The position numbers and the translations under genes are program-made. This document shows, piece by piece, positions 48,755-63,963 of a DNA stretch of 64,000 nucleotides. The notes below the pieces were generated by a model, which worked only from the letters and a program-made list of their open reading frames with translations, was not told the origin of the DNA and did no database searches. The first letter of the stretch is position 1. Each line of letters begins with the position of its first letter. Source of the DNA: Thermodesulfobacteriota bacterium (GTDB taxonomy: Bacteria > Desulfobacterota > GWC2-55-46); the NCBI GenBank assembly GCA_030583865.1, contig CP129479.1, positions 2,442,819-2,506,818 of the forward strand, written 5' to 3'.

Positions 48755-49144
48755 ATGAATTTTCTGGAGAGCGTTAATGACGAGCTTAAAAAGGCGGTCG
48801 AGGAAGGCTGGGCTGCCTTAAAGGAAAGCGCACAATCCGGGAAACTCCGGCTTAAGCTCCACAGCCTCAACAGGGAAGCGGAGAAACGCTTCAGGGAGAT
48901 AGGCGGGATAGTGTATGAATCGGATAGGCTCCACAGGGAAGACCCGCTCAAAAGCCCAGAATTGCAGAGGCTTGTTGCCGAGATCAGGCAGATAGAGGCG
49001 GAAACGGAAGCCCTCAGGGACGAGTTGAGTAAACTCAAGGGGCAAGGAACCGTCATAAGAGACAGCATGCCTCCATGCAGCCCACCTTTGCATCGGCCCG
49101 AAGATAAGCCTTTTATACCCATATGGAAAACATACCGCTTCTAA
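48755..49144 (+). CDS. Small helical (coiled-coil) protein of unknown function
   Basis: A 129-residue protein, not recognised. ATG 48755 follows AGGAGGGATA, an excellent site, whereas the longer frame upstream has none. Residues 1-90 are almost entirely charged helix (NFLESVNDELKKAVEEGWAALKESAQSGKLRLKLHSL...AEKRFREIGG), followed by LQRLVAEIRQIEAETEALRDELSKLKG, a likely coiled coil. Its last 22 bases overlap the antiporter start. It could be a small regulatory partner of the antiporter; that is inference. Confidence 0.6.
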   Translation: MNFLESVNDELKKAVEEGWAALKESAQSGKLRLKLHSLNREAEKRFREIGGIVYESDRLHREDPLKSPELQRLVAEIRQIEAETEALRDELSKLKGQGTVIRDSMPPCSPPLHRPEDKPFIPIWKTYRF

Positions 49145-51113
49145 GGGACATAGTAATCCTGCTTGCGGTCTCGGTGCCGCTGCCGCTAAGCATGCTCCTT
49201 TCAAGGCTTGGTCTCCCGACCGTCGTGGGATTCCTCATGACCGGCATCGTCATCGGCCCCTACGGGTTCGGGCTCGTGAAGGACGTGCATACCGTGGAGC
49301 TCCTTGCGCAGGTCGGGGTGGTGCTCCTCCCTTTCACCATCGGCCTCGAGTTCTCTATTTCCAAGCTCCTTAAGATACGGCGCGAGGGACTTATCGGCGG
49401 CGGGCTCCAGGTGGGGCTCACGGTGCTTTGCGTCGCGCTCATCTCCCTTGTTTTCGGGCAGGACCTTAAAGTCGCCGTGCTCCTGGGCTTCGTCGTGTCC
49501 CTTTCATCGACCGCCATCGTCTTGAAGCTCCTGGCCGACAGGGGGGACGTGAATACGCCCCACGGGAACTTTTCGGTCGGGGTGCTCATATTCCAGGACC
49601 TGGCCGTGGTCCTCATGGTCATGGTCCTGCAGTCAATAGGGCTTAACGGAGAGGCCTCTCCGCTGGATATTTCGAAGAAGCTCGGGGTCTCGTTCGCGGC
49701 GTTCGCAGTAATCGTCGCCGGGGTGGTGTGGCTAATTCCGAGGCTATTCGACCAGGTCGTGAAGCTCCGCAATAGAGAGGTCTTCATCCTCACCACCGTC
49801 CTCGTCTGCCTGGGCACGGCCTGGTTCACGTCCCTTTTCGGCCTCTCGCTCGCGCTCGGGGCCTTCATAGCCGGTCTCGCCATCTCGGAATCCGAGTACA
49901 GCAACCAGATAGTGGCGGAGGTCATCCCGTTCAGGGACACATTCTCAAGCCTCTTTTTCATATCCATCGGGATGCTCCTAGACCTGAGCTTCTTCATCGG
50001 CCATATAGGGTGGATAGCGCTCCTGGTGGCGGCCATCATAGCGGCCAAGGCGCTGGTCGTAATCGGCATCGGGCGGGTACTGAAGTACCCGTTCAGGCTC
50101 TCGGTGATAGTGGGCCTGAACCTCGCGCAGATAGGCGAGTTCTCCTTCATCTTGATAAAGATGGGACAGGACTATAACCTCCTTAATGAGGTCCTTTACA
50201 GTCCTTCCTGGCCTCGGCCATAATAACGATGTCCCTTACGCCATTCATTTACCAGAGGTCGGCCAGGCTCGCCTTTGACCTCGGAAAGCTCCTCGGCATG
50301 GGCGGCGGGCACCCGGGGCAGAAAAAGACCCATCTCTCGAATCACGTCATAATAATCGGCTACGGGCTGAACGGGCGGAACCTCGCGCGGGTCTTGAAGG
50401 AGACGGGCATCCCCCACGCCATCATGGAGATGAACATGGAGCGGGTGAAGGCGGCCAAAGCCGAGGGGCACAGCGCCTATTTCGGCGACGCGAGCCACCC
50501 GGAGGTCTTCAAGAAACTGGGTGTGGAGAAGGCAAAGATGGTGGTGACCGCCATATCAGACCCGATAAGCACGAGGGCGATAGTAAAGACCGCGCGTGAA
50601 ATAAGCCCGACAGTCTCCATAATAGTGCGGACCAGGTTCGTGAAGGAGGTGGAGGACCTTTACAGGCTCGGCGCCAACCAGGTCATACCGGAGGAGTTCG
50701 AGACCTCGGTGGAGATATTCGCGCGCGTGCTCAGGGACTACCGGGTCCCCACGAACATCATCCAGAACCAGATAGACCTTATCCGGCAGGAAGGATACGC
50801 GATGCTGCGGAACCTGGCGCTCTCGACCGACAGGCTCTCGAGGCTCTCGGCCATACTGGAGAAGACGGTCATGGACACCTTCTATGTGGACGATGTCTGT
50901 TCGGTTGCAGGTTCGACCCTGAGGGACCTGGATTTCAGGAAGAGGACCGGCGCGACGGGTCATAGCCATAGCAAGGGGGAACGTGGCCAATACGAACCCC
51001 GGGCCGGATTTCAGGATAGAGAAGGGGGACATACTGTACTTCTGGGGAGCCACGCCCAGCTTGCCGCGGCATTTCAGATACTGAACGAAAAGTGCCCTGT
51101 TACGAAGGCATGA
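49123..51113 (+). pseudogene. CPA2-type cation:proton antiporter with TrkA domains, frameshifted
   Basis: The full frame would encode about 663 residues: an antiporter domain of 10-12 spans (KefB/YbaL-like; LPTVVGFLMTGIVIGPYGFGL, VSLSSTAIVLKLLADRGD, IAGLAISESEYSNQIV, LNLAQIGEFSFIL), then TrkA-N (NHVIIIGYGLNGRNLARVL, DASHPEVF) and RCK_C. Three one-base changes break it. One base seems missing at 50199-50201, so the first frame stops at 50223 and the second starts at ATG 50229. A G seems extra at 50957-50959, and a base missing near 51054-51058; between these the C-terminal 30 residues are out of frame. Fixing all three restores SVAGSTLRDLDF...VIAIARGN...DFRIEKGDILYFWGATP and LAAAFQILNEK. Confidence 0.85.
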
Positions 51114-54157: not shown

Positions 54158-54664
54158 TTGTCAATACAACCAAAGTACTACTCCCGCCTGAAAAGGTTGT
54201 ACTACCTCTTTCGTGATTTTGTATACCTTCGAAGGATTGCCAATTCCCCGGACCGCGACTATCATAGGCCGTTCAAAATACGTTTCAGGGTCAAGGGCCT
54301 GTTGAAAAAATCCAAGGACATCACCAGTACTCGCGTATGCCCGTCTTGCGGGAAGGCTTTCATCTGGTTTGTCGAGACCCCGCTCTCATGCCCTTACTGC
54401 GGCTATCTGCCCCGTGATAAAAGGGGTGAAGGCAGGACCGCCCTTGAGAGGACGTTCGAGCTCAAGCTCGGCAAAAAGAAATTCACGGCGAACCTCCTCG
54501 ATTATTCGGCGTCCGGTGTGAGGCTTTCCTGTCCGGAGCGCATAGGCATGGACACGCTAGTGTCCATAGACATAACGGAATTGGGCATTCACAGGTCCGC
54601 AAGGGCCGTCTGGACCCTGTCGATATTGCCGGGGGTGGCAATGGCGGGGTTCGAGTTCATCTGA
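54158..54664 (+). CDS. Zinc-ribbon/PilZ domain protein (paralogue of 14935)
   Basis: A 168-residue protein: a basic N-terminal extension (about 1-55), a zinc ribbon (CPSC, CPYC at about 61-82), then a PilZ domain with RGEGR and DYSASG, the c-di-GMP contacts, and the closing TELGIHRSARAVWTLSI. The same two-domain core occurs in the protein at 14935. The start is a TTG at 54158 with no strong ribosome-binding site. It lies between the LuxR-type gene and the Wza-like gene (10-base gap), suggesting c-di-GMP control of polysaccharide output. Confidence 0.85.
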   Translation: MSIQPKYYSRLKRLYYLFRDFVYLRRIANSPDRDYHRPFKIRFRVKGLLKKSKDITSTRVCPSCGKAFIWFVETPLSCPYCGYLPRDKRGEGRTALERTFELKLGKKKFTANLLDYSASGVRLSCPERIGMDTLVSIDITELGIHRSARAVWTLSILPGVAMAGFEFI

Positions 54665-54674
54665 GGGGAAATCC

Positions 54675-55259
54675 ATGTTCTCAAGGCACCTGCTTAAAAT
54701 GCTCACGTGTGCGCTTTTTGCGCTCTTTCTGGCCGGCGCGCCTGCCAATGCCGCCAATGAAGCGGGCGGGCCCGAATACCTGATAGGCCCCGAGGACGTG
54801 CTCGAAATAGTGGTCTGGAGGAACACCGAACTGTCAAGGCTGGTCACGGTCAGGCCCGACGGCAGGATAACGCTGCCGCTCATCGGCGAGCTCACGGCCG
54901 CGGGCTTCACGCCCGAGGAACTCAGGGCAGATATAGTCGAGCGCCTCAAGGAGTACCAGCAAAGCGCGGTCGTGGCCTCTGTAATAGTGCAGAGCGTCAA
55001 CAGCTACAGGGTGTACGTGCTCGGGCAGGTGCAGGTGCCCGGGAGCTATTCCCTAAAATCCAGGACCACTGTCCTGCAGGCATTGTCGCTCGCCGGTGGT
55101 TTCAGCCAGTTCGCGTCCAAGAACAAGATAGTGCTCATAAGAAAACGGCCCGACGGGCTGGATGACAAGATCCAGGTCAAGTTCAACGACCTGGTATACG
55201 ACGAAGAGAGCCGCGCGAACGAGTACCTTTTGCCGGGAGACACGATTTTTGTTCCGTAG
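54675..55259 (+). CDS. Polysaccharide export outer-membrane protein (Wza-like)
   Basis: A 194-residue exported protein: signal peptide (LLKMLTCALFALFLAGAPANA), Poly_export domain (YLIGPEDVLEIVVWRNTELSRLVTVRPDGRITLPLIGELTAAGFTPEELRADI), and one SLBB domain (VYVLGQVQVPGSYSLKSRTTVLQALSLAGGFSQFA). No lipobox Cys is seen at the signal cut, and it has fewer SLBB domains than E. coli Wza; such short exporters are normal in XrtA-type loci. It ends in the start of the next gene (11-base overlap). Confidence 0.9.
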   Translation: MFSRHLLKMLTCALFALFLAGAPANAANEAGGPEYLIGPEDVLEIVVWRNTELSRLVTVRPDGRITLPLIGELTAAGFTPEELRADIVERLKEYQQSAVVASVIVQSVNSYRVYVLGQVQVPGSYSLKSRTTVLQALSLAGGFSQFASKNKIVLIRKRPDGLDDKIQVKFNDLVYDEESRANEYLLPGDTIFVP

Positions 55260-56379
55260 GCTGCTCCTTACCGGTCTTTTATTGTCAATCCCGGCCTCGG
55301 AGGCCTGGGCATGGGTCGCAAGGCCCTCGTTATCGACCGAGTTCCGTTTCGAGAAGAACTCCGGCCCCGCATCGGACGGAAGCGGCTCAGCGGACGACAG
55401 TATCCTGAGGTCGTCTCCAAGGCTCGACCTTGAAAAAAGCGGCATGAACACCGGCTTCAACGCCGGGTACGCGTTTACCTGGAACCGATACCTCGGCGAC
55501 AGCGACAGGGACTGGACAGCCCGTAACGCAGTAGCGGGACTTGAAATGAGGATTTCACATTTGACTGAGCTGCGGGCCGGATACGATTTTACCTACACGA
55601 GGGAGCCGAGGGAGGCCACCTTGACAGGCATCGAGGCCTTCCGGACCGCCGATATCCGCTCGCATAACGCCAGTGTAAGCGGCTCTCACATGATAAGTCC
55701 CAGGCTCACGGGCACGCTCTCGCTTTCCGGCGGCGTCCTCGAGTTCGAGGACCCCTCTGCCGTGGACAGCAGGACGTTCTCGGCGGGCGCAGCCGGAGAG
55801 TTCCGCTGGACTGAAAGGACGAGCTTCACCCCGGCATATGAGTACACGAACCTCGACTACGACTCCGTCCCGTCGACGGACATACAGAGCCATTCGCTCA
55901 ACGCGGGCTTTTCAACCCGGCACTCGGAGAGCCTTACCTATAACATTTCCGCGGGCCTGGCCTATTCGACGGGCCTTAGCGACAGGGTAGACTGGACGGC
56001 AGCCGCCGGACTCTCAAAGTCGTTCCAGCGGGGCTCCGTTTCGGCCTCCTACTCGAGAGGCGTATCGGACAGCTCCGGGCTGACCGATGAACTCAACATA
56101 AGCGAGTCCGTCACGGCAGGCCTCTCCAGGAACCTGAGCGATTCAGCCTCTTTTTCCTTGTCCGCCGGCTATGCCAGGAACAGGACAAGGCCCTCGGGCG
56201 CGGTCGACCTTAAATCATTTTCAGCCGACGCTGGCGTAAGATGGCAGCCGCTACGCTGGGCGACAATCGGCGCCGGCATAAGCCACTTCAACCAGCTCTC
56301 AGACGGGATTACCGGCTCGGACGTGGAGAGGAACGCCTTTTATCTCAACCTGATCCTGCAGAACGAATACAGGCCCTGA
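55249..56379 (+). CDS. Outer-membrane beta-barrel protein of the exopolysaccharide locus
   Basis: A 376-residue protein with a signal peptide (FRRLLLTGLLLSIPASEAWA) followed by about 300 residues of alternating polar/aromatic strands with turns (LTELRAGYDFTYTREPRE, FSLSAGYARNRTRPSG) and a terminal strand FYLNLILQNEYRP. This is the pattern of an outer-membrane barrel, such as the PEP-CTERM-system-associated TIGR03016 proteins. TTG 55249 has GGGAG nine bases upstream. It overlaps the Wza-like gene and ends two bases before the Wzz-like start. It may be the porin or a secretin-like partner for polysaccharide export; the role is inference. Confidence 0.8.
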   Translation: MFRRLLLTGLLLSIPASEAWAWVARPSLSTEFRFEKNSGPASDGSGSADDSILRSSPRLDLEKSGMNTGFNAGYAFTWNRYLGDSDRDWTARNAVAGLEMRISHLTELRAGYDFTYTREPREATLTGIEAFRTADIRSHNASVSGSHMISPRLTGTLSLSGGVLEFEDPSAVDSRTFSAGAAGEFRWTERTSFTPAYEYTNLDYDSVPSTDIQSHSLNAGFSTRHSESLTYNISAGLAYSTGLSDRVDWTAAAGLSKSFQRGSVSASYSRGVSDSSGLTDELNISESVTAGLSRNLSDSASFSLSAGYARNRTRPSGAVDLKSFSADAGVRWQPLRWATIGAGISHFNQLSDGITGSDVERNAFYLNLILQNEYRP

Positions 56380-56381
56380 AA

Positions 56382-57890
56382 ATGGAAAACTTCAACGCCA
56401 TATCCTTTCTCGAGGCGGCATACAGGCGCAAGTGGCTGGTCATTGCGCCCGCCGCGCTGGGCACCGCCATAGCCGCCATAGTGGCCTGGCTCATGCCTTC
56501 GTATTACCTCTCCACGACACTGATACTCGTCGAGCAGCAGCAAGTGCCGACGTCCTACGTGACCCCTACGGACGTCACGCCGTTCAACCAGCGCCTCAAT
56601 ACCATCCGGCAGCAGATACTCAGCAGGCCGAACCTGGAACGCATCATAAACGAGTTCAGCCTCTACCAGACGAGCGGCGGCCTCCTCGAGCGGGCGGCTT
56701 CGAAAGCGGACATCGACATGAGCAGGCCGCTAAGCCGCGAGAGCGCCCTTAACAGGCTCGTCTCGAGCCTCGAGATACGGCTCGTGGGGGAGAGAAGGGC
56801 GGAGGACGCGTTCAGCATCAGCTACTCGGGCACCGACCCCTACACCACCATGCAGGTCACGAGCGCCCTCGCGTCGATGTTCATAAACGAGAACCTTAAG
56901 CGGAGAGAAATGTACGCCGAGGGGACCTCGGAGTTCCTGTCTGACGAGCTGGCGCGGGCCAAGAGCGAGCTAGAGGCCCAGGAGCGCGCGGTGCGGGACT
57001 TCAAGGAAAGATACATGGGAGGGCTTCCGGAGCAGCTCGACGCGAACCTCCGGACGCTCGACAGGCTACAGCTGGACCTCCAGGCGGTGCGGCTCGAGAT
57101 AAAGGGCGCGGAGGACAGGAAAATCCAGCTCGAAACCCAGCTTAATTCGCCCGTGGGCGCCGTATCGGGCCCACAGGTCAACCCCCTGGTCGTTGAGATG
57201 GAGAGCCTGCAAAGGGAGCTTACGCAGCTCCTTTCGCAGTATAACGAAAACTACCCTGACGTGATAATCGTAAGGAACAGGCTCAAGGAGCTCGGGAGCC
57301 TACTTGCCTCGAACAGGACCGGGGCTCCCGAGACGACATCCGCAGTACTCCCCGGGCCTGAGATACGGAACCCCGAGGCCTATAACAACCTCGTTTCGGT
57401 CGAATCGCAGCTGCGCTCCCTGAGGACAAGGGAACGCGAACTGAACGAGAACATCCGCGCGCTTGAGAAGCGGGTCGAGGACACCCCTGCCAACGAGCAG
57501 CGGTACACGGACCTTAACAGGAATTACCAGATATCCTTCGCCAACTACCAGAACCTCCTTGAAAAGAGCCTGAACGCGCGTCTTGCCGAAAACCTCGAGA
57601 AGAGGCAGAAAGGCGAAAGGTTCAGGATAATCGACCCGGCAAACCTGCCGGAAGGTCCGTACAAGCCGAAGCGGGGCCTCATTGCGCTGGCCGGCACGGC
57701 CATCGGGGCCGGTCTCGGGTTCGGCGTCATATTCCTCCTTGAGTTCACGAGCCCGGCGTTCAGGAAGCCGGAGGAGTTCGAGGGCCTTCTGGACTTCCAG
57801 GTCATCGCCTCGATCCCGGCTTTCGAGCCGGACCCGCATGCGAAAAAGGGCAGGTTCGGGAGAGTAAGCGGGGGGAGCGGGAAGAGATGA
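56382..57890 (+). CDS. Chain-length determinant protein (Wzz/GNVR-like)
   Basis: A 502-residue inner-membrane polysaccharide co-polymerase. It has an N-terminal span (WLVIAPAALGTAIAAIVAWLM), a Wzz domain, a long periplasmic coiled coil (about 185-300 and 345-405; LSDELARAKSELEAQERAVRDFKERYM, VESQLRSLRTRERELNENIRALEKRVED), the proline-rich IIDPANLPEGPYKPKR and a C-terminal span (GLIALAGTAIGAGLGFGVIFLL). The kinase activity is on separate proteins downstream, as in Gram-positive-style split systems. It overlaps the MinD-like gene (ATGA). Confidence 0.9.
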   Translation: MENFNAISFLEAAYRRKWLVIAPAALGTAIAAIVAWLMPSYYLSTTLILVEQQQVPTSYVTPTDVTPFNQRLNTIRQQILSRPNLERIINEFSLYQTSGGLLERAASKADIDMSRPLSRESALNRLVSSLEIRLVGERRAEDAFSISYSGTDPYTTMQVTSALASMFINENLKRREMYAEGTSEFLSDELARAKSELEAQERAVRDFKERYMGGLPEQLDANLRTLDRLQLDLQAVRLEIKGAEDRKIQLETQLNSPVGAVSGPQVNPLVVEMESLQRELTQLLSQYNENYPDVIIVRNRLKELGSLLASNRTGAPETTSAVLPGPEIRNPEAYNNLVSVESQLRSLRTRERELNENIRALEKRVEDTPANEQRYTDLNRNYQISFANYQNLLEKSLNARLAENLEKRQKGERFRIIDPANLPEGPYKPKRGLIALAGTAIGAGLGFGVIFLLEFTSPAFRKPEEFEGLLDFQVIASIPAFEPDPHAKKGRFGRVSGGSGKR

Positions 57891-58927
57891 GCATCCTTTC
57901 GAGATTCCTCGGCAAGAGGAAAAAGGCCGAGCCCGAAAAAGCCCCGCCTTCAGGCCGCCTTTCCATAGTCGGGAAGATGCCCCGGCCCCTTTCCCGCATA
58001 TGGACGATCGGCGGGGGCAAGGGCGGAGTTGGCAAAAGCGTCGTCGCCGCGAACTTCGGAACGCTCCTCGCCGGCTCCGGACGGAGGACGCTCATCGTCG
58101 ACGCGGACTTCGGCGCGGCCAACCTGCATACCCTTTTCGGCATACAGGGCTCCAACCCGTCCCTTTCGAGCTTCCTTAAATCGGAGGTCACGGATATCAA
58201 AAGGCTCATCACCGGGACAGGCATCCAGAAACTCGATATAATTACGGGTGCCATGGACTCGCTCAATATCGCGGACGTGGACGCGTCGTCACTTATGCGC
58301 CTGCAGCGGGCCATCTCGGAGCTCGACTACGACCATGTCGTCCTCGACCTCTCGCCCGGCACCTCATCCGACGTGCTCGACTGCTTTCTGATGTCTGACG
58401 AAGGGATACTCGTGACCACACCGGAGCCCACCTCAATAGAGAACACCTACAGGTTCATGAAGTGCCTGTTCCTCCGGAGGATACGGGCGATCATAAACTC
58501 CGGCGAGCCTGGGCGCCTGAAAGAAACGCTCAAGGCGGCCCTGGAGCGCGACCCGAGGATAGGGACCGTCTCGGAGTTCATGAAGAACTACAAGCTCAGC
58601 GCCGGAGCCGGATCGGCCCCGGAGGAGATACTGGGAGGCATGGGGGGCCACCTCGTCGTAAACAGGACCCGGCTCCCGGAAGACCGCGCCATCGGGCCGC
58701 ATATGCAGCGGGCCTGCATGAGCTACTTCGGCGTGCGTTTCAACCACCTGGGCGACATCGGCCAGGACACCTCTATAGAGGATTCCGTCCGGGCGAGAAG
58801 GCCTCTCGTCAGGGACTATCCCGGGAGCCCCGCCGCGCTCTCGCTCGTCTCCTGCTTCAGAAAGCTCGCATCCATCGAGCAGGAGAAGGCCGGGCAGGAG
58901 GCCGATAAGGGGCTTATGCAGATATGA
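57887..58927 (+). CDS. MinD/ParA-like ATPase in the exopolysaccharide operon
   Basis: A 346-residue P-loop ATPase with the deviant Walker A GGGKGGVGKS (about 42-51), VDADFGAANLHTLFG (switch/A' region) and VVLDLSPGTSSDVLD (Walker B), resembling MinD and FlhG/FleN proteins that act in spatial or numerical control. A basic N-terminal extension (RKKAEPEKAP) and a C-terminal region with conserved GVRFNHLGDIGQDTSIEDSVRARRP follow. It overlaps both the Wzz-like gene and the J-domain kinase gene by four bases, so the three are made together. I do not recognise a named family for the C-terminal part. Confidence 0.85.
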   Translation: MSILSRFLGKRKKAEPEKAPPSGRLSIVGKMPRPLSRIWTIGGGKGGVGKSVVAANFGTLLAGSGRRTLIVDADFGAANLHTLFGIQGSNPSLSSFLKSEVTDIKRLITGTGIQKLDIITGAMDSLNIADVDASSLMRLQRAISELDYDHVVLDLSPGTSSDVLDCFLMSDEGILVTTPEPTSIENTYRFMKCLFLRRIRAIINSGEPGRLKETLKAALERDPRIGTVSEFMKNYKLSAGAGSAPEEILGGMGGHLVVNRTRLPEDRAIGPHMQRACMSYFGVRFNHLGDIGQDTSIEDSVRARRPLVRDYPGSPAALSLVSCFRKLASIEQEKAGQEADKGLMQI

Positions 58928-59910
58928 ACCAGCGAGTGAACATCGACTATTACGAGCTCTTGGATATCGCACCGGGGGCGGCTTCCTCCGAGGTGGAAGA
59001 GGCCTACAGGAAGGCCCTGTCCGACCTGGGCGGCGACTCCGTGGCCATCTACTCGCTTTACACCCCGGAGGAGAAGGAAGAGCTTATCTCAAGGATCAAC
59101 GAGGCATACGAGGTCTTGAGCGACCCGGAGAGGAGGGCCGCGTACGACGCCGGGGCCGCCGCGAAACCGGAGCCGGCCGTAACGCGCGAATTCGAGCTGG
59201 GCGACCTGGGCCCCGCGGTCGACGCGCGCCACTTCAAAAGGTACGGGAAGACCACCGGCTTTATAAGGCCGCCGGTCTCCGCCTCGGGCGAAAACTCCAT
59301 CATAACGGAGCAGTACCGGATCCTGTATTCAAGGATACACCGGATGGCCGACGATGGGCAGTTGAGGATCATAGCCGTGACCAGCGCCGTAAAGGGAGAG
59401 GGGAAATCGGTCACCTCGCTCAACCTGGCGTACGTCACGGCCTGCGAGTTCAAGAAAAGGGTGCTCCTCGTCGAGTGCGACCTGCGGAAAACCTCTACCC
59501 TCTCGAGGATGATAGAGCGCGGGGAAGAGTGCGGGCTCGCGGATGTCCTCGAGGGCAGGGCCGACATACGGGACGCAGTCTGCCGCGTGGACGGGACAAG
59601 CCTTTACATGCTTACCTCGGGCACGTGCTCGAGGAGCTCATCAGAGCTCATAGACTCGCCCTATCTCAAGTCTCTATTCAACGGGTTCAGGGACGAATTC
59701 GACTATATATTCGTGGACACCCCGCCGATACTGCCCCTGGCTGACATGAACATCATTTCGAGGCTTGTGGACGGGACGCTATTGGTGGTAAGGGCCGGGG
59801 CCACCCCGAAGAAGGTGGTCCTCAATGCGGCCCAATCCCTTTCAGAGGGACGGTTCATCGGCATAGTGCTTAACGGCGCCGAGGCCGCGCTGGCCGGTTA
59901 CTATTATTAG
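58924..59910 (+). CDS. J-domain/BY-kinase fusion (CpsD/CapB-type tyrosine kinase)
   Basis: A 328-residue fusion. Residues 8-77 look like a J domain (YYELLDIAPGAASSEVEEAY ... INEAYEVLSDPERRAAYD) but the HPD tripeptide is absent; the loop is GGDS. Residues 125-328 are a bacterial tyrosine-kinase domain: TEQYRILYSRI, Walker A SAVKGEGKS (154-162), A' LLVECDLRK (181-189), Walker B IFVDTPP (262-268), and a terminal YYY (326-328) as a short tyrosine cluster. BY-kinases phosphorylate themselves and control Wzz/polymerase assembly. The two domains joined in one chain are unusual. It starts in the MinD-like stop (ATGA) and is followed by the priming transferase. Confidence 0.9.
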   Translation: MNQRVNIDYYELLDIAPGAASSEVEEAYRKALSDLGGDSVAIYSLYTPEEKEELISRINEAYEVLSDPERRAAYDAGAAAKPEPAVTREFELGDLGPAVDARHFKRYGKTTGFIRPPVSASGENSIITEQYRILYSRIHRMADDGQLRIIAVTSAVKGEGKSVTSLNLAYVTACEFKKRVLLVECDLRKTSTLSRMIERGEECGLADVLEGRADIRDAVCRVDGTSLYMLTSGTCSRSSSELIDSPYLKSLFNGFRDEFDYIFVDTPPILPLADMNIISRLVDGTLLVVRAGATPKKVVLNAAQSLSEGRFIGIVLNGAEAALAGYYY

Positions 59911-59928: not shown

Positions 59929-61317
59929 ATGCTCTTCAACAGGCACCCTTCCAAGCGACTGCTGTACATAGCCCTCATCGAGGGCCTTCTCATATTCCTT
60001 GCCGCGCTCGTGTCGGTTGCGATACGCCTCTCTTTCGAGGGCGGCGCAATGGTCGAATACGACCCCAGCTACTTGAAGAGCCTGGTGCTGACCGCGATCT
60101 ACCTCATCACCTTCTACTACTTCGACCTCTACACGCCCGACATGTACAGGCCGAGCCGATACATGTTCTCGAGGCTCATAAAGGCCATGATAGTAGCGGC
60201 CATAATACAGTTCAGCATCTTCTACATCATCCCGTCCCTCAAGATATGGCGTGGCATCCTGCTCATCAACATGCTCATAATGCCCGCGGCCATCATATGC
60301 TTCAGGCTCATCTTCTCGAAGATACTGAAGATAAAGCTCCCCGGGAAGCGCGTCCTCATCATCGGCGCCGGCGACCTCGCCAAGAGGATCGGGAGCGAGA
60401 TATACACCAAGCCCGAGCACGGCCTCAATCTCGTGGGATTCATCGACGACGACCCGACCAAATACGGGGTATCCATCGTAAACCCGGGCGTTATCGGCGG
60501 ATACGGAGACATCTCGAGGCTCGCGGACGAGCAGAATATCGACCTCATAATAGTCGCTCTCCCGGACAGGAGGGCCAAGCTCCCCATGTCCGCCCTCCTC
60601 GACTGCAAGCTCAAGGGCATATCGGTCGAGGAAAGCGAGACCTTCAAGGAAAGGCTCACCGGCAAGATACCACTCGACCACCTGAAGCCTAGCTGGATGG
60701 TATTCTCGGACGGCTTCAGGTCGCTCAGGTCCAGGAAGTTCGTGAAGAGGTCCCTCGACATCGTATTCGCGTCCCTCTGGCTTGTAATGGCGGCGCCGGT
60801 AATGCTCCTTACGGCAGCGATAATCAAGCTCGAATCAAAGGGGCCGGTCATATTCAGGCAGGTCAGGGTGGGAGAGCACGGGAGGGAGTTCAGCATCTAC
60901 AAGTTCCGCTCGATGCGCCAGGACGCTGAGGCCAAGACCGGGCCGGTATGGGCGGTGGCCAACGACGACAGGGTCACCCTGGTGGGTCGCATAATCAGGA
61001 AGCTCCGCATAGACGAGCTGCCGCAGCTCGTAAACGTCCTTAAGGGCGACATGAGCTTCGTCGGCCCGAGGCCCGAGCGCCCGTACTTCGTAAACAAGCT
61101 CAGGGAGGAGATCCCTTACTACAATATCAGGACGGTGGTGAAGCCGGGCCTCACCGGGTGGGCGCAGATAAAATATCCATACGGCGCGAACATGGAGGAC
61201 GCGGTCGAGAAGCTCCAGTACGAGATATTCTATATCAAGAACATGTCCCCTCTCCTCGACCTAATGATAATGTTCTGGACCATAAAAGTCGTGCTCACCG
61301 GCAGGGGGGCGAGATAG
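59929..61317 (+). CDS. Polyprenyl-phosphate sugar-1-phosphate transferase (TIGR03013/EpsB-type)
   Basis: The 462-residue priming enzyme that puts the first sugar phosphate on undecaprenyl phosphate. It has four or five N-terminal membrane spans (about 10-135), a CoA-binding-like domain (RVLIIGAGDLAKRIGSEI), one further span (SLDIVFASLWLVMAAPVMLLTAAI) and the C-terminal transferase with FRQVRVGEHGREFSIYKFRSM, LRKLRIDELPQLVNVLKGDMSFVGPRPERP, and PGLTGWAQI. The stretch GKIPLDHLKPSWMVFSDGFR is typical of TIGR03013, the XrtA/PEP-CTERM-associated transferases. The ribosome-binding site is GGGGA upstream. Confidence 0.92.
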   Translation: MLFNRHPSKRLLYIALIEGLLIFLAALVSVAIRLSFEGGAMVEYDPSYLKSLVLTAIYLITFYYFDLYTPDMYRPSRYMFSRLIKAMIVAAIIQFSIFYIIPSLKIWRGILLINMLIMPAAIICFRLIFSKILKIKLPGKRVLIIGAGDLAKRIGSEIYTKPEHGLNLVGFIDDDPTKYGVSIVNPGVIGGYGDISRLADEQNIDLIIVALPDRRAKLPMSALLDCKLKGISVEESETFKERLTGKIPLDHLKPSWMVFSDGFRSLRSRKFVKRSLDIVFASLWLVMAAPVMLLTAAIIKLESKGPVIFRQVRVGEHGREFSIYKFRSMRQDAEAKTGPVWAVANDDRVTLVGRIIRKLRIDELPQLVNVLKGDMSFVGPRPERPYFVNKLREEIPYYNIRTVVKPGLTGWAQIKYPYGANMEDAVEKLQYEIFYIKNMSPLLDLMIMFWTIKVVLTGRGAR

Positions 61318-61364: not shown

Positions 61365-61850
61365 ATGAACTGGTACGCAATATACACGAAGCCGGGCTGC
61401 GAGGAGAGAGTATCCTCCCGTCTTAACGGGGCAGGGTTCAGCGTCCTGAGCCCGCTCCTGAAGGAGAGGAGGCTCTACCGGAGGAAGCTCCAGGAGGTGG
61501 TCTCGCCGCTCTTCCCCTGCTACATATTCGCCGAGCTCGATATGCCGACCCATTACCGCCTCATAAGGTACACGAGGGGGGTGCGGCAGATAGTCGGCAA
61601 CGAGGCCGCGCCACTGCCTGTCCCGGATGCCGTCATAGGCTCGATACTGGGCAGGATGGAAAACGGCCTGGTTTCGGTAAGGCGGGAAGAGTTCAGCCCG
61701 GGCGAGAGCGTGGCCATAAAGGGCGGGGCCTTCGAGGGTTTCGAGGCCCTGTTCGAGCGGGAGATGAGCGGCTCCGAGAGAGTGAGCATACTCCTCAAGG
61801 CCCTGAACGCCCGGATAATACTGGACAGGGCCCTTCTGGCAAGGCTTTAA
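61365..61850 (+). CDS. NusG-family transcription antiterminator paralogue (RfaH/LoaP-like)
   Basis: A 161-residue specialised NusG. It begins MNWYAIYTKPGCEERVSSRL, the NGN-domain start, with SPLFPCYIFAELD and RYTRGVRQIVGNEAAPLPVPD, then a KOW domain (FSPGESVAIKGGAFEGFEALFERE). Such proteins are found inside polysaccharide operons and help polymerase read through long operons by binding at ops-like sites. ATG 61365 follows AGGAA. A hairpin terminator, a second hairpin and an ops-like sequence follow within 130 bases, before asnB, consistent with its own target. Confidence 0.88.
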   Translation: MNWYAIYTKPGCEERVSSRLNGAGFSVLSPLLKERRLYRRKLQEVVSPLFPCYIFAELDMPTHYRLIRYTRGVRQIVGNEAAPLPVPDAVIGSILGRMENGLVSVRREEFSPGESVAIKGGAFEGFEALFEREMSGSERVSILLKALNARIILDRALLARL

Positions 61851-61989: not shown

Positions 61990-63963
61990 ATGTGCGGAAT
62001 AGCTGGAATAACCGGAGGGAACCTGGCTGTCGGCCAGGAGGCCTTGAAGTCGATGCTCTCGATGCTCCGCCACCGGGGGCCGGACGACTTCGGCCTCTAT
62101 AGCGACGGCCGCGCGGCCCTGGGACACACGAGGCTCAGCATAATTGACCTCGAGGGCGGGCGCCAGCCCATGTCCAACGAGGACGGGAGCGTCTGGATAA
62201 GCTTCAACGGGGAGATATTCAACTATATCGAGCTCAAGGACGAACTCGCGAGAAAGGGGCACCGTTTTTCCACAAACTCCGATACCGAGGTAATAATCCA
62301 CCTCTACGAGGAGCTCGGAGACGGATGCGTTACGCGCCTTAACGGCCAGTTCGCCTTCGCCATATGGGACAAAAACCGCTCCGAGCTCTTTATAGCGCGC
62401 GACAGGCTCGGGATACGGCCCCTTTTCTACTCTTCGCACGCGGGCCGCTTCTATTTCGCTTCCGAGATAAAGGCGCTCTTCGCCGGGGGGCCTCTCCCGA
62501 GGGAGATAGACCCGGCGGCGCTTAATGAGATATTCACCCTCTGGTGCAGCGTGCCGCCGAGGACCGCCTTCAAGGGAATAAACGAGCTTCCTCCCGCTCA
62601 CTGGATGAAAATAAAGGACGGGGCAATCGCGTCGGTCGAGCGCTACTGGGACGTGCCGCTCGGCGAAGAAACGCGCGATATGAGCATTGAAGAGGCAGCG
62701 GACGGGCTTTTTGATATCCTCTCTGATTCGACGCGCCTGCAGCTACGGGCTGACGTGCCGGTCGGGGCATACTTGAGCGGCGGGCTCGATTCCTCCGTAA
62801 CCGCCGCGCTGATAACGAAGATTTCCGGAGCCGGCCCGCATACCTTCTCCGTGGCGTTCGAAGACCGGGCATACGACGAGAGCGGGTTCCAGCACGAGAT
62901 GGCCCGCCACCTCGGGACCGAGCACCACGAGATACGGTGTTCGTACTCCGACATAAGCGGGGTCTTCCCGGAGGTCGTCTGGTATGCCGAGAAGCCGGTC
63001 CTAAGGACCGCGCCTGCCCCGCTTTTCATCCTCTCTCGCCTTGTGAGGGAGACCGGGCTCAAGGTAGTCCTTACGGGCGAGGGAGCTGACGAGGCGGCCG
63101 GGGGCTACGACATTTTCAAGGAGGCGAAGATACGGGAGTTCTGGGCGCGCGAGCCGGAATCCAGGCTCCGCCCCCTGCTCCTTAAGAAGCTCTATCCTTA
63201 CCTGAGCGCGTTCCAGGGCCAGTCCGACGCGTACAGGGAAGCCTTCTTCAACGGCGGCCTCTCCGACGTCTCCGACCCTCTCTTCTCACATCGTCCGAGA
63301 TGGCAGACCACCTCAAGGCTCAAGGCCTTTTTCTCGAAGGACCTCCTGGCCGAATGCACGCCGGGCCCGGAGGAGCGGCTTAAGATGCTCATGCCCCCGG
63401 GGTTCGGAAGCTGGAGGGCGCTCGCCAGGGCGCAGTACATAGAGACTGCAAGCCTTCTGCCGGGCTACATACTCTCTTCCCAGGGCGACAGGGTGCTGAT
63501 GGGTAACTCGGTTGAAGGACGGTACCCTTTCCTGGACCACAGGGTAGTTGAGTACTGCGCCCGGCTGCCGCTTCGCCATAAGATGCGCGGCCTCGACGAA
63601 AAGCACGTACTCAAGCGGATGGCGCACGGCATGCTGCCCGCCTCCATCCTCAAGCGGACCAAGCAGCCCTATCTCGCGCCTGACAGCAAGAGCTTTTTTG
63701 CCGGGGGCAAGTCGCCCGATTACGTGGAGGAACTCCTATCCGAGGGGTCGCTCAAGGACTCCGGGTATTTCGATCCCGTGTCCGTGGGGCTCCTCGTCAA
63801 GAAATGCCGCAGGGGCGCGGCGAGCGGCTTCAGAGACAACATGGCCCTTGTCGGCATACTCTCAACGCAGCTCCTGCATGAGATGTTCATAGCCGGGTTC
63901 GAGAACAGGGCCGTGGCCGGGCGCGATGCGGGCCTCCGGGCGCCGGCCGCCGCGGCCTCATAA
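61990..63963 (+). CDS. asnB: Asparagine synthetase B-type amidotransferase
   Basis: A 657-residue glutamine-dependent amidotransferase. The N-terminal Ntn domain starts with Cys2 (MCGIAGITGG) and shows MLRHRGPDDFG, NGEIFNYIELKDEL, and the DRLGIRPLFY motif; the synthetase domain has YLSGGLDSSVTAAL (ATP PP-loop) and VVLTGEGADEAAGGYDIFKE, followed by EGRYPFLDHRVVEYC. In XrtA/PEP-CTERM polysaccharide loci, AsnB-like proteins (TIGR03108-type) amidate sugar carboxylates; that is likely here from context. The EGADEAAGG motif is slightly unlike EGxDELFGG of classic AsnB. No strong ribosome-binding site precedes the ATG. Confidence 0.9.
   Translation: MCGIAGITGGNLAVGQEALKSMLSMLRHRGPDDFGLYSDGRAALGHTRLSIIDLEGGRQPMSNEDGSVWISFNGEIFNYIELKDELARKGHRFSTNSDTEVIIHLYEELGDGCVTRLNGQFAFAIWDKNRSELFIARDRLGIRPLFYSSHAGRFYFASEIKALFAGGPLPREIDPAALNEIFTLWCSVPPRTAFKGINELPPAHWMKIKDGAIASVERYWDVPLGEETRDMSIEEAADGLFDILSDSTRLQLRADVPVGAYLSGGLDSSVTAALITKISGAGPHTFSVAFEDRAYDESGFQHEMARHLGTEHHEIRCSYSDISGVFPEVVWYAEKPVLRTAPAPLFILSRLVRETGLKVVLTGEGADEAAGGYDIFKEAKIREFWAREPESRLRPLLLKKLYPYLSAFQGQSDAYREAFFNGGLSDVSDPLFSHRPRWQTTSRLKAFFSKDLLAECTPGPEERLKMLMPPGFGSWRALARAQYIETASLLPGYILSSQGDRVLMGNSVEGRYPFLDHRVVEYCARLPLRHKMRGLDEKHVLKRMAHGMLPASILKRTKQPYLAPDSKSFFAGGKSPDYVEELLSEGSLKDSGYFDPVSVGLLVKKCRRGAASGFRDNMALVGILSTQLLHEMFIAGFENRAVAGRDAGLRAPAAAAS

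Follow-up and report, generated by a model that had tools for sequence, protein, structure and literature searches.

An HPD-less J-like domain fused to a bacterial tyrosine kinase and encoded next to a MinD-like ATPase in an exopolysaccharide operon

The analysed stretch of 64,000 nucleotides (hereafter the window) contains an exopolysaccharide operon in which a gene for a fusion between a J-like module and a bacterial tyrosine kinase (BY-kinase), here called the J-kinase, lies directly downstream of a gene for a MinD-like ATPase (Table 1). Genes overlap by ATGA at both junctions, that between the Wzz-type gene and the start of the MinD-like gene and that between the MinD-like stop and the J-kinase start, and the ATPase and the kinase are probably translationally coupled neighbours. 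The locus fits models of the XrtA/PEP-CTERM type, with TIGR03013 matched above its cut-off and TIGR03027 and TIGR03007 somewhat below theirs, and an exosortase (PF09721) is encoded about 5.4 kb beyond the end of the window. Elsewhere in the window, a KefB-like cation/proton antiporter with a TrkA-type domain (49123–51113) is broken into two ORFs (366 and 294 residues). The close relative G005 has a single 661-residue ORF in its place (L124:526-2511), and the split is therefore attributed to a frameshift, either a mutation or an assembly error.

Table 1. Features of the exopolysaccharide locus and of the J-kinase, in window coordinates
Feature	Coordinates	Strand	Basis
PilZ-domain protein, 5' of the operon	54158..54664	+	PilZ 24.1 bits (cut-off 22.5); neighbour conserved in relatives
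Outer-membrane polysaccharide export protein (Poly_export/SLBB)	54675..55259	+	Pfam, NCBIfam
Outer-membrane beta-barrel (BBP2_2/TIGR03016-like)	55249..56379	+	Pfam, NCBIfam; start inferred from relatives
Wzz-type co-polymerase, XrtA-system chain-length-determinant-like, with GNVR domain	56382..57890	+	Wzz, GNVR; TIGR03007 254 bits, just below cut-off of 279
MinD-like ATPase (346 aa), related to FlhG/FleN; putative partner of the J module	57887..58927	+	Pfam, NCBIfam, structure comparison; adjoins J-like modules
J-like/BY-kinase fusion protein, 328 aa	58924..59910	+	ORF, PF00226, AAA_31, TIGR01007, 26 full-length homologues
HPD-less J-like module, residues 8–75	58945..59148	+	Pfam, AlphaFold2 helices, PDB fold matches
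Conserved block DSVAIYSLYTPEEK, residues 38–51, replacing the HPD loop	59035..59076	+	Y43, L45, Y46 and E50 invariant in 20 J-kinase modules
Linker, residues 82–114, weakly conserved, mostly disordered	59167..59265	+	pLDDT <50 at residues 82–103
BY-kinase domain, residues 115–328, with Walker A, deviant A' (Glu184), Walker B, Tyr326–328	59266..59907	+	TIGR01007, motif alignment, VIA-align
EpsB-type initiating sugar transferase	59929..61317	+	Bac_transf 7e-67; TIGR03013 above cut-off
RfaH/NusG-type antiterminator	61365..61850	+	NusG 1e-19; RfaH model 102 bits, below cut-off
AsnB-type amidotransferase, same locus	61990..63963	+	Named from sequence, no HMM; conserved neighbour in several relatives

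The J-kinase ORF begins with ATG, and the N-terminal part of its product matches the Pfam DnaJ family (PF00226) with 46.4 bits and an E-value of 4.2e-12 (cut-off 27.8 bits), which bears out the J-domain match that an earlier note on this DNA had placed at residues 8–77. The kinase half scores 131.5 bits with the NCBIfam model of polysaccharide-biosynthesis tyrosine autokinases (TIGR01007; cut-off 108.05), in agreement with the BY-kinase proposed for it; the protein also matches AAA_31 at 1e-13, and its score with the XrtA-associated tyrosine autokinase model TIGR03018 (132.8 bits) is below the cut-off of 230.65. CapAB and Wzc align to residues 115–324 at a Z of about 28 (VIA-align). The earlier description of a CpsD/CapB-type kinase with Walker A, A' and B motifs and a YYY tail stands for Walker A (TSAVKGEGKS, residues 153–162), Walker B (YIFVDTPP, residues 261–268) and the C-terminal tyrosine cluster (Y326–Y328), with one correction at Walker A', which is deviant: it reads LLVECDLR (residues 181–188), where the first Asp position of DxDxR is taken by Glu184 (codon at 59473–59475), a conservative change, and the second Asp and the Arg are kept. 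The AlphaFold2 model of the full-length protein (33-row alignment, pLDDT 82) comprises a J-like bundle, a disordered linker (residues 82–103) and a BY-kinase fold. Because the best 50 Foldseek matches of this model were kinases only, the J module was also predicted alone (65-row alignment, pLDDT 75), and J-type helices were obtained at residues 9–12, 21–36, 48–66 and 68–80. Among the best 50 PDB matches of the isolated module, nearly all are J domains or J-containing proteins (Foldseek probability 1.00, TM 0.5–0.7, best E-value 2e-3).

In J domains, the HPD tripeptide between helices II and III is required for Hsp70 stimulation. It occurs nowhere in the 328-residue protein, as the earlier note had recognised, and the helix II–III loop reads GGDSVAIYSLYTPEEK instead. 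Alignment of the window protein with 26 full-length homologues shows that all of them lack HPD and that all keep a block of the DSxAxYSLYxxEE type; a related block, DSxAxYSLFSEE, is found in the J-HTH proteins described below. Nine residues (Y10, L13, Y43, L45, Y46, E50, L65, Y74 and D75) are invariant in the 20-row set of J-kinases. Since the replacement block is common to all homologues, the HPD loop has been rebuilt and retained rather than simply discarded. Judged by the missing HPD, the J-like module is not a canonical Hsp70 co-chaperone.

The 26 homologues keep both halves of the fusion and belong to three families of one order, sometimes with two copies per genome. Within the class, J-profile scores are bimodal: fusions score at least 69 bits (intact ones at least 100), and DnaJ proteins about 62 or lower. 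When the proteins of the genome contigs were scanned, five true relatives were recovered, and most of the other matches were ordinary DnaJ proteins that have HPD. The draft genome G001 has two frame-broken J-kinase copies (L137 and L114). The window genome itself contains a second J-kinase at a distance of 1.2 Mb, within another exopolysaccharide locus; this J-kinase/MinD/Wzz locus (L140, G000:C1:1282927-1302800) is about 43% identical, and a second exosortase is encoded about 28 kb from it. Seven BY-kinases of the same class are J-less; they are encoded in SLBB-Wzz-kinase loci with no adjoining MinD-like gene. In a tree of kinase domains, the J-kinases form one clade (100/100) together with one of these J-less kinases, L115, and with L299, a fusion protein described below, to the exclusion of the ordinary kinases that these genomes also encode. 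The Asp-to-Glu change in Walker A' is found in 26 of 26 aligned J-kinases and in L299, and the residue is Asp in all seven kinases without MinD (L115 and six ordinary ones).

The degenerate J domain seen earlier on this kinase stands, and it proved to be one member of a wider family of J modules that the earlier note did not contain. Outside the order of the window, about 40 genomes (among 395 of the phylum) encode proteins, mostly of 200–240 residues, that begin with the same HPD-less J module and end with a Pfam HTH_25 domain of the RodZ type. Two single-chain fusions were also found. L196 (Myxococcales, 631 residues) was obtained when five named relatives were searched with the J profile, which otherwise returned mainly DnaJ, and joins MinD, J-like and HTH_25 domains in one polypeptide. 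In L299, from another family of the phylum (G104), a MinD-like domain is fused directly to a BY-kinase without a J-like module, and the gene follows a Wzz-type gene, an order also seen in the window. The Walker A motif of the MinD half of L299 (L299:2598-4388) is degenerate (GSGEKGAGKS), so ATP hydrolysis by this half may have been lost; a neighbouring gene codes for a PEP-CTERM-like protein. HPD-less J-like modules of other kinds were seen in large DUF4388-like, response-regulator or TPR proteins (L202, L208 and L213, from Myxococcales and Desulfuromonadales), and such domains seem to be common in these two groups.

The MinD-like ATPase has the deviant Walker A motif GGGKGGVGKS, of the KGGVGKS type of the MinD/ParA class, and K45, K50 and D154 are invariant in the A3 set. 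It scores 65–87 bits with TIGR01968 and TIGR01969, below their cut-offs of over 200, and the solved structures nearest to it are those of FleN/FlhG (5j1j and 4rz2; 132 bits over profile positions 14–176). A gene of this kind lies directly upstream of the J-kinase gene at 28 loci (the window, 25 intact loci and the two frame-broken draft copies); at the one remaining locus, L129, the contig ends before the upstream gene. The same arrangement is found at 43 J-HTH loci (34 in the wide set, six short loci and three reached from the MinD side), and the wide set contains one in-chain fusion besides. Wherever the contig reaches, there is thus no exception in either the kinase or the HTH version. Among the 395 genomes, the J module is present in 49 and the MinD subfamily, scoring at least 345 bits, in 50: the same 49 and G187, in which the adjacent gene carries a lower-scoring J module. 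The A3 MinD profile was trained on J-linked MinDs, so the gap in MinD scores arises partly by construction, but the adjacency does not. Genes farther out differ among most MinD/J-HTH loci, which indicates that the MinD + J pair is the unit. Membrane targeting of the kinase-linked MinDs through an N-terminal amphipathic helix, a hydrophobic/basic stretch (FDWFRRFLSG and similar), was considered and set aside, because for most of them, the window protein among these (fraction 0.92), the hydrophobic moment was not significant when compared with shuffled sequences.

We propose, with moderate confidence and from sequence comparisons, that the J-like domain is an adaptor that has exchanged Hsp70 for the MinD-like ATPase and that couples this ATPase to the kinase at the Wzz-type co-polymerase or at a cell site. 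Because the domain is always encoded with one MinD-like ATPase, it probably allows the ATPase to position the kinase or switch it on. In this reading, the J-like module would be contacted by the MinD-like protein in its ATP-bound form, probably at the surface where DSxAxYSLYxxEE stands in for the HPD loop, and the contact would keep the BY-kinase at the Wzz-type co-polymerase in the membrane or at one particular place in the cell. It may also tune autophosphorylation of the kinase on its C-terminal tyrosines, which in turn would control polymerisation or export of the exopolysaccharide. In related bacteria, the same MinD and J-like pair would serve another output, the HTH_25 (RodZ-like) domain, and in the lineage of the window the link would be a dedicated one, with the ATPase encoded in the operon and the kinase having gained an adaptor that the J-HTH proteins already used. 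Judging only by breadth of distribution, we infer that the J module moved from HTH proteins to the kinase; gain and loss of the module are not polarised by the kinase tree, because the branching order within the clade is not settled. The lack of a J module in L299, where MinD and kinase are covalently joined, fits a connector role. Whether a lineage of J domains has lastingly given up Hsp70 in favour of a MinD/FlhG-type ATPase, so as to form a plug-in adaptor to HTH or kinase outputs in an undescribed two-component module, we regard as about evenly balanced.

The earlier note had suggested that the J domain serves for docking, with the MinD-like ATPase or the polymerase complex as possible partners, rather than as an Hsp70 co-chaperone. 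Docking to the ATPase gains strong support from comparative genomics, through its invariable adjacency in two output architectures, its absence beside J-less kinases and the two single-chain fusions, although neighbouring genes may be co-inherited without their products binding. It is possible, but rather unlikely, that the module acts on the kinase itself, by oligomerisation or autoinhibition, and that the MinD-like ATPase is a separate pathway subunit travelling in the operon, as adjacent genes do. The module occupies the position of the N-terminal region of other BY-kinases, the clade has an altered form of the EX2RX2R oligomerisation motif (EQYRILY), and L299 retains MinD and kinase without J. 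However, the motif is also changed in the J-less kinases L115 and L117, the same module occurs on HTH proteins, where the MinD-like gene is always present too, and L196 joins J and MinD in one chain. If the module docked the kinase to either the Wzz-type co-polymerase or the sugar transferase, the presence of both genes beside the kinase gene in most J-kinase loci would be accounted for. For such docking no specific support was found: the J-less kinases L115, L117 and L120–L123 have Wzz-type and EpsB-like genes nearby, and neither gene adjoins the J-HTH loci. For these reasons, the J module tracks MinD rather than the Wzz-type or EpsB genes, and we consider docking to either of the latter improbable.

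A working J domain that recruits DnaK to the exopolysaccharide machinery would agree with the significant Pfam DnaJ match and the J fold, and links between BY-kinases and Hsp70 exist, as PtkA phosphorylates DnaK in Bacillus subtilis (PMC4835898). Nevertheless, HPD is absent from 65 of 65 modules examined, J-kinase and J-HTH alike, and the loop has been rebuilt with another conserved block, whereas a genuine DnaJ recovered by the same J-profile search (L254) retains the tripeptide and lacks a MinD neighbour. With HPD missing, DnaK recruitment was set aside as very improbable, and the same count supports the docking module of the earlier note over a co-chaperone. A decaying domain or an annotation artefact, as the frame-broken copies in G001 might suggest, is scarcely credible given the 26 full-length homologues and the nine invariant residues. 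Within the preferred reading, adaptor docking to the MinD-like ATPase, reservations apply. A Wzz-type protein with a cytoplasmic tail is the usual activator of BY-kinases, and because the operon retains one, the MinD-like ATPase need not be the activator. Likewise, MinD and SalA of B. subtilis activate PtkA without a J domain, so contact need not be made through the J-like module.

Several known systems resemble parts of this arrangement. The CpsD/CapB/Wzc kinases, especially those of TIGR03018, share with the J-kinase the fold, Walker A and B, the tyrosine cluster and an operon of the XrtA/PEP-CTERM type, but the window kinase differs in its N-terminal J-like domain and Walker A' Glu, and in its locus the gene for the MinD-like ATPase separates the kinase gene from the Wzz-type gene. 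MinD of B. subtilis binds the BY-kinase PtkA, stimulates its autophosphorylation and is needed for the polar focus of PtkA (PMC4205851), and SalA, a MinD/Mrp-type ATPase, likewise activates PtkA (PMC5035731). The partnership of a MinD-family ATPase with a BY-kinase is thus shared; however, the PtkA system has no J-like domain and its ATPases have other roles, whereas the window ATPase is encoded in the operon, directly 5' of the kinase. In pneumococcus, CpsD has been linked to ParB (PMC4754617). BcsQ, a MinD-like protein that is essential for cellulose secretion and is recruited by partner proteins (PMC7439463), serves a polysaccharide secretion machine, as proposed for the window ATPase, but it belongs to another subfamily, its partners are BcsR and BcsE, and neither a kinase nor a J domain is involved. 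The control of FleQ by FlhG/FleN, a MinD-like protein acting on a DNA-binding partner, resembles the MinD/J-HTH pair, except that its context is flagellar and it has no J-like adaptor. Pam16/Magmas and other HPD-less J-like domains illustrate the J fold as a binding or regulatory module without HPD; unlike the window module, the mitochondrial Pam16 has a J protein as its partner, and neither MinD nor a kinase takes part. The J-HTH_25 proteins of other genomes of the phylum have a homologous J module and a homologous MinD neighbour but an output other than a BY-kinase and no conserved wider neighbourhood.

BY-kinases, HPD-less J-like domains and contacts between MinD and kinases are already known separately. 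No description of the J/BY-kinase fusion or of the MinD + J pair was found in the open-access literature searched; nor, in the same literature, was the combination, the replacement motif or a pairing of MinD with a J adaptor with swappable outputs. How the tyrosine kinases of bacterial polysaccharide machines are placed and switched has been asked for a long time. For B. subtilis and pneumococcus, proteins of the MinD/ParA type have been implicated, though not as dedicated partners; in the lineage of the window, a MinD-like ATPase seems to have become a fixed partner of the kinase in the course of evolution. The proposed link offers a clear candidate for the docking domain and, in YSLY, a short candidate for the contact motif, which makes it directly testable. 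If it is true, a J domain would here have replaced Hsp70 by a MinD-type protein as its ATPase partner.

Other arrangements were seen among more distantly related MinD-like ATPases. The window genome has a third MinD-like ATPase of the subfamily, with a C-terminal extension (L291:2952-4948; G000:C1 near 2138721), which is followed by a gene that looks PilZ-like by eye rather than by HMM; the same pair is found in G007 (L292). The partner gene of the MinD relative in L289 has HDOD-like sequence, again by eye and not by HMM, and in L297 (G360) and L298 (G341) MinD-like ATPases are fused to long C-terminal regions that appear, by eye, to be TPR-like.
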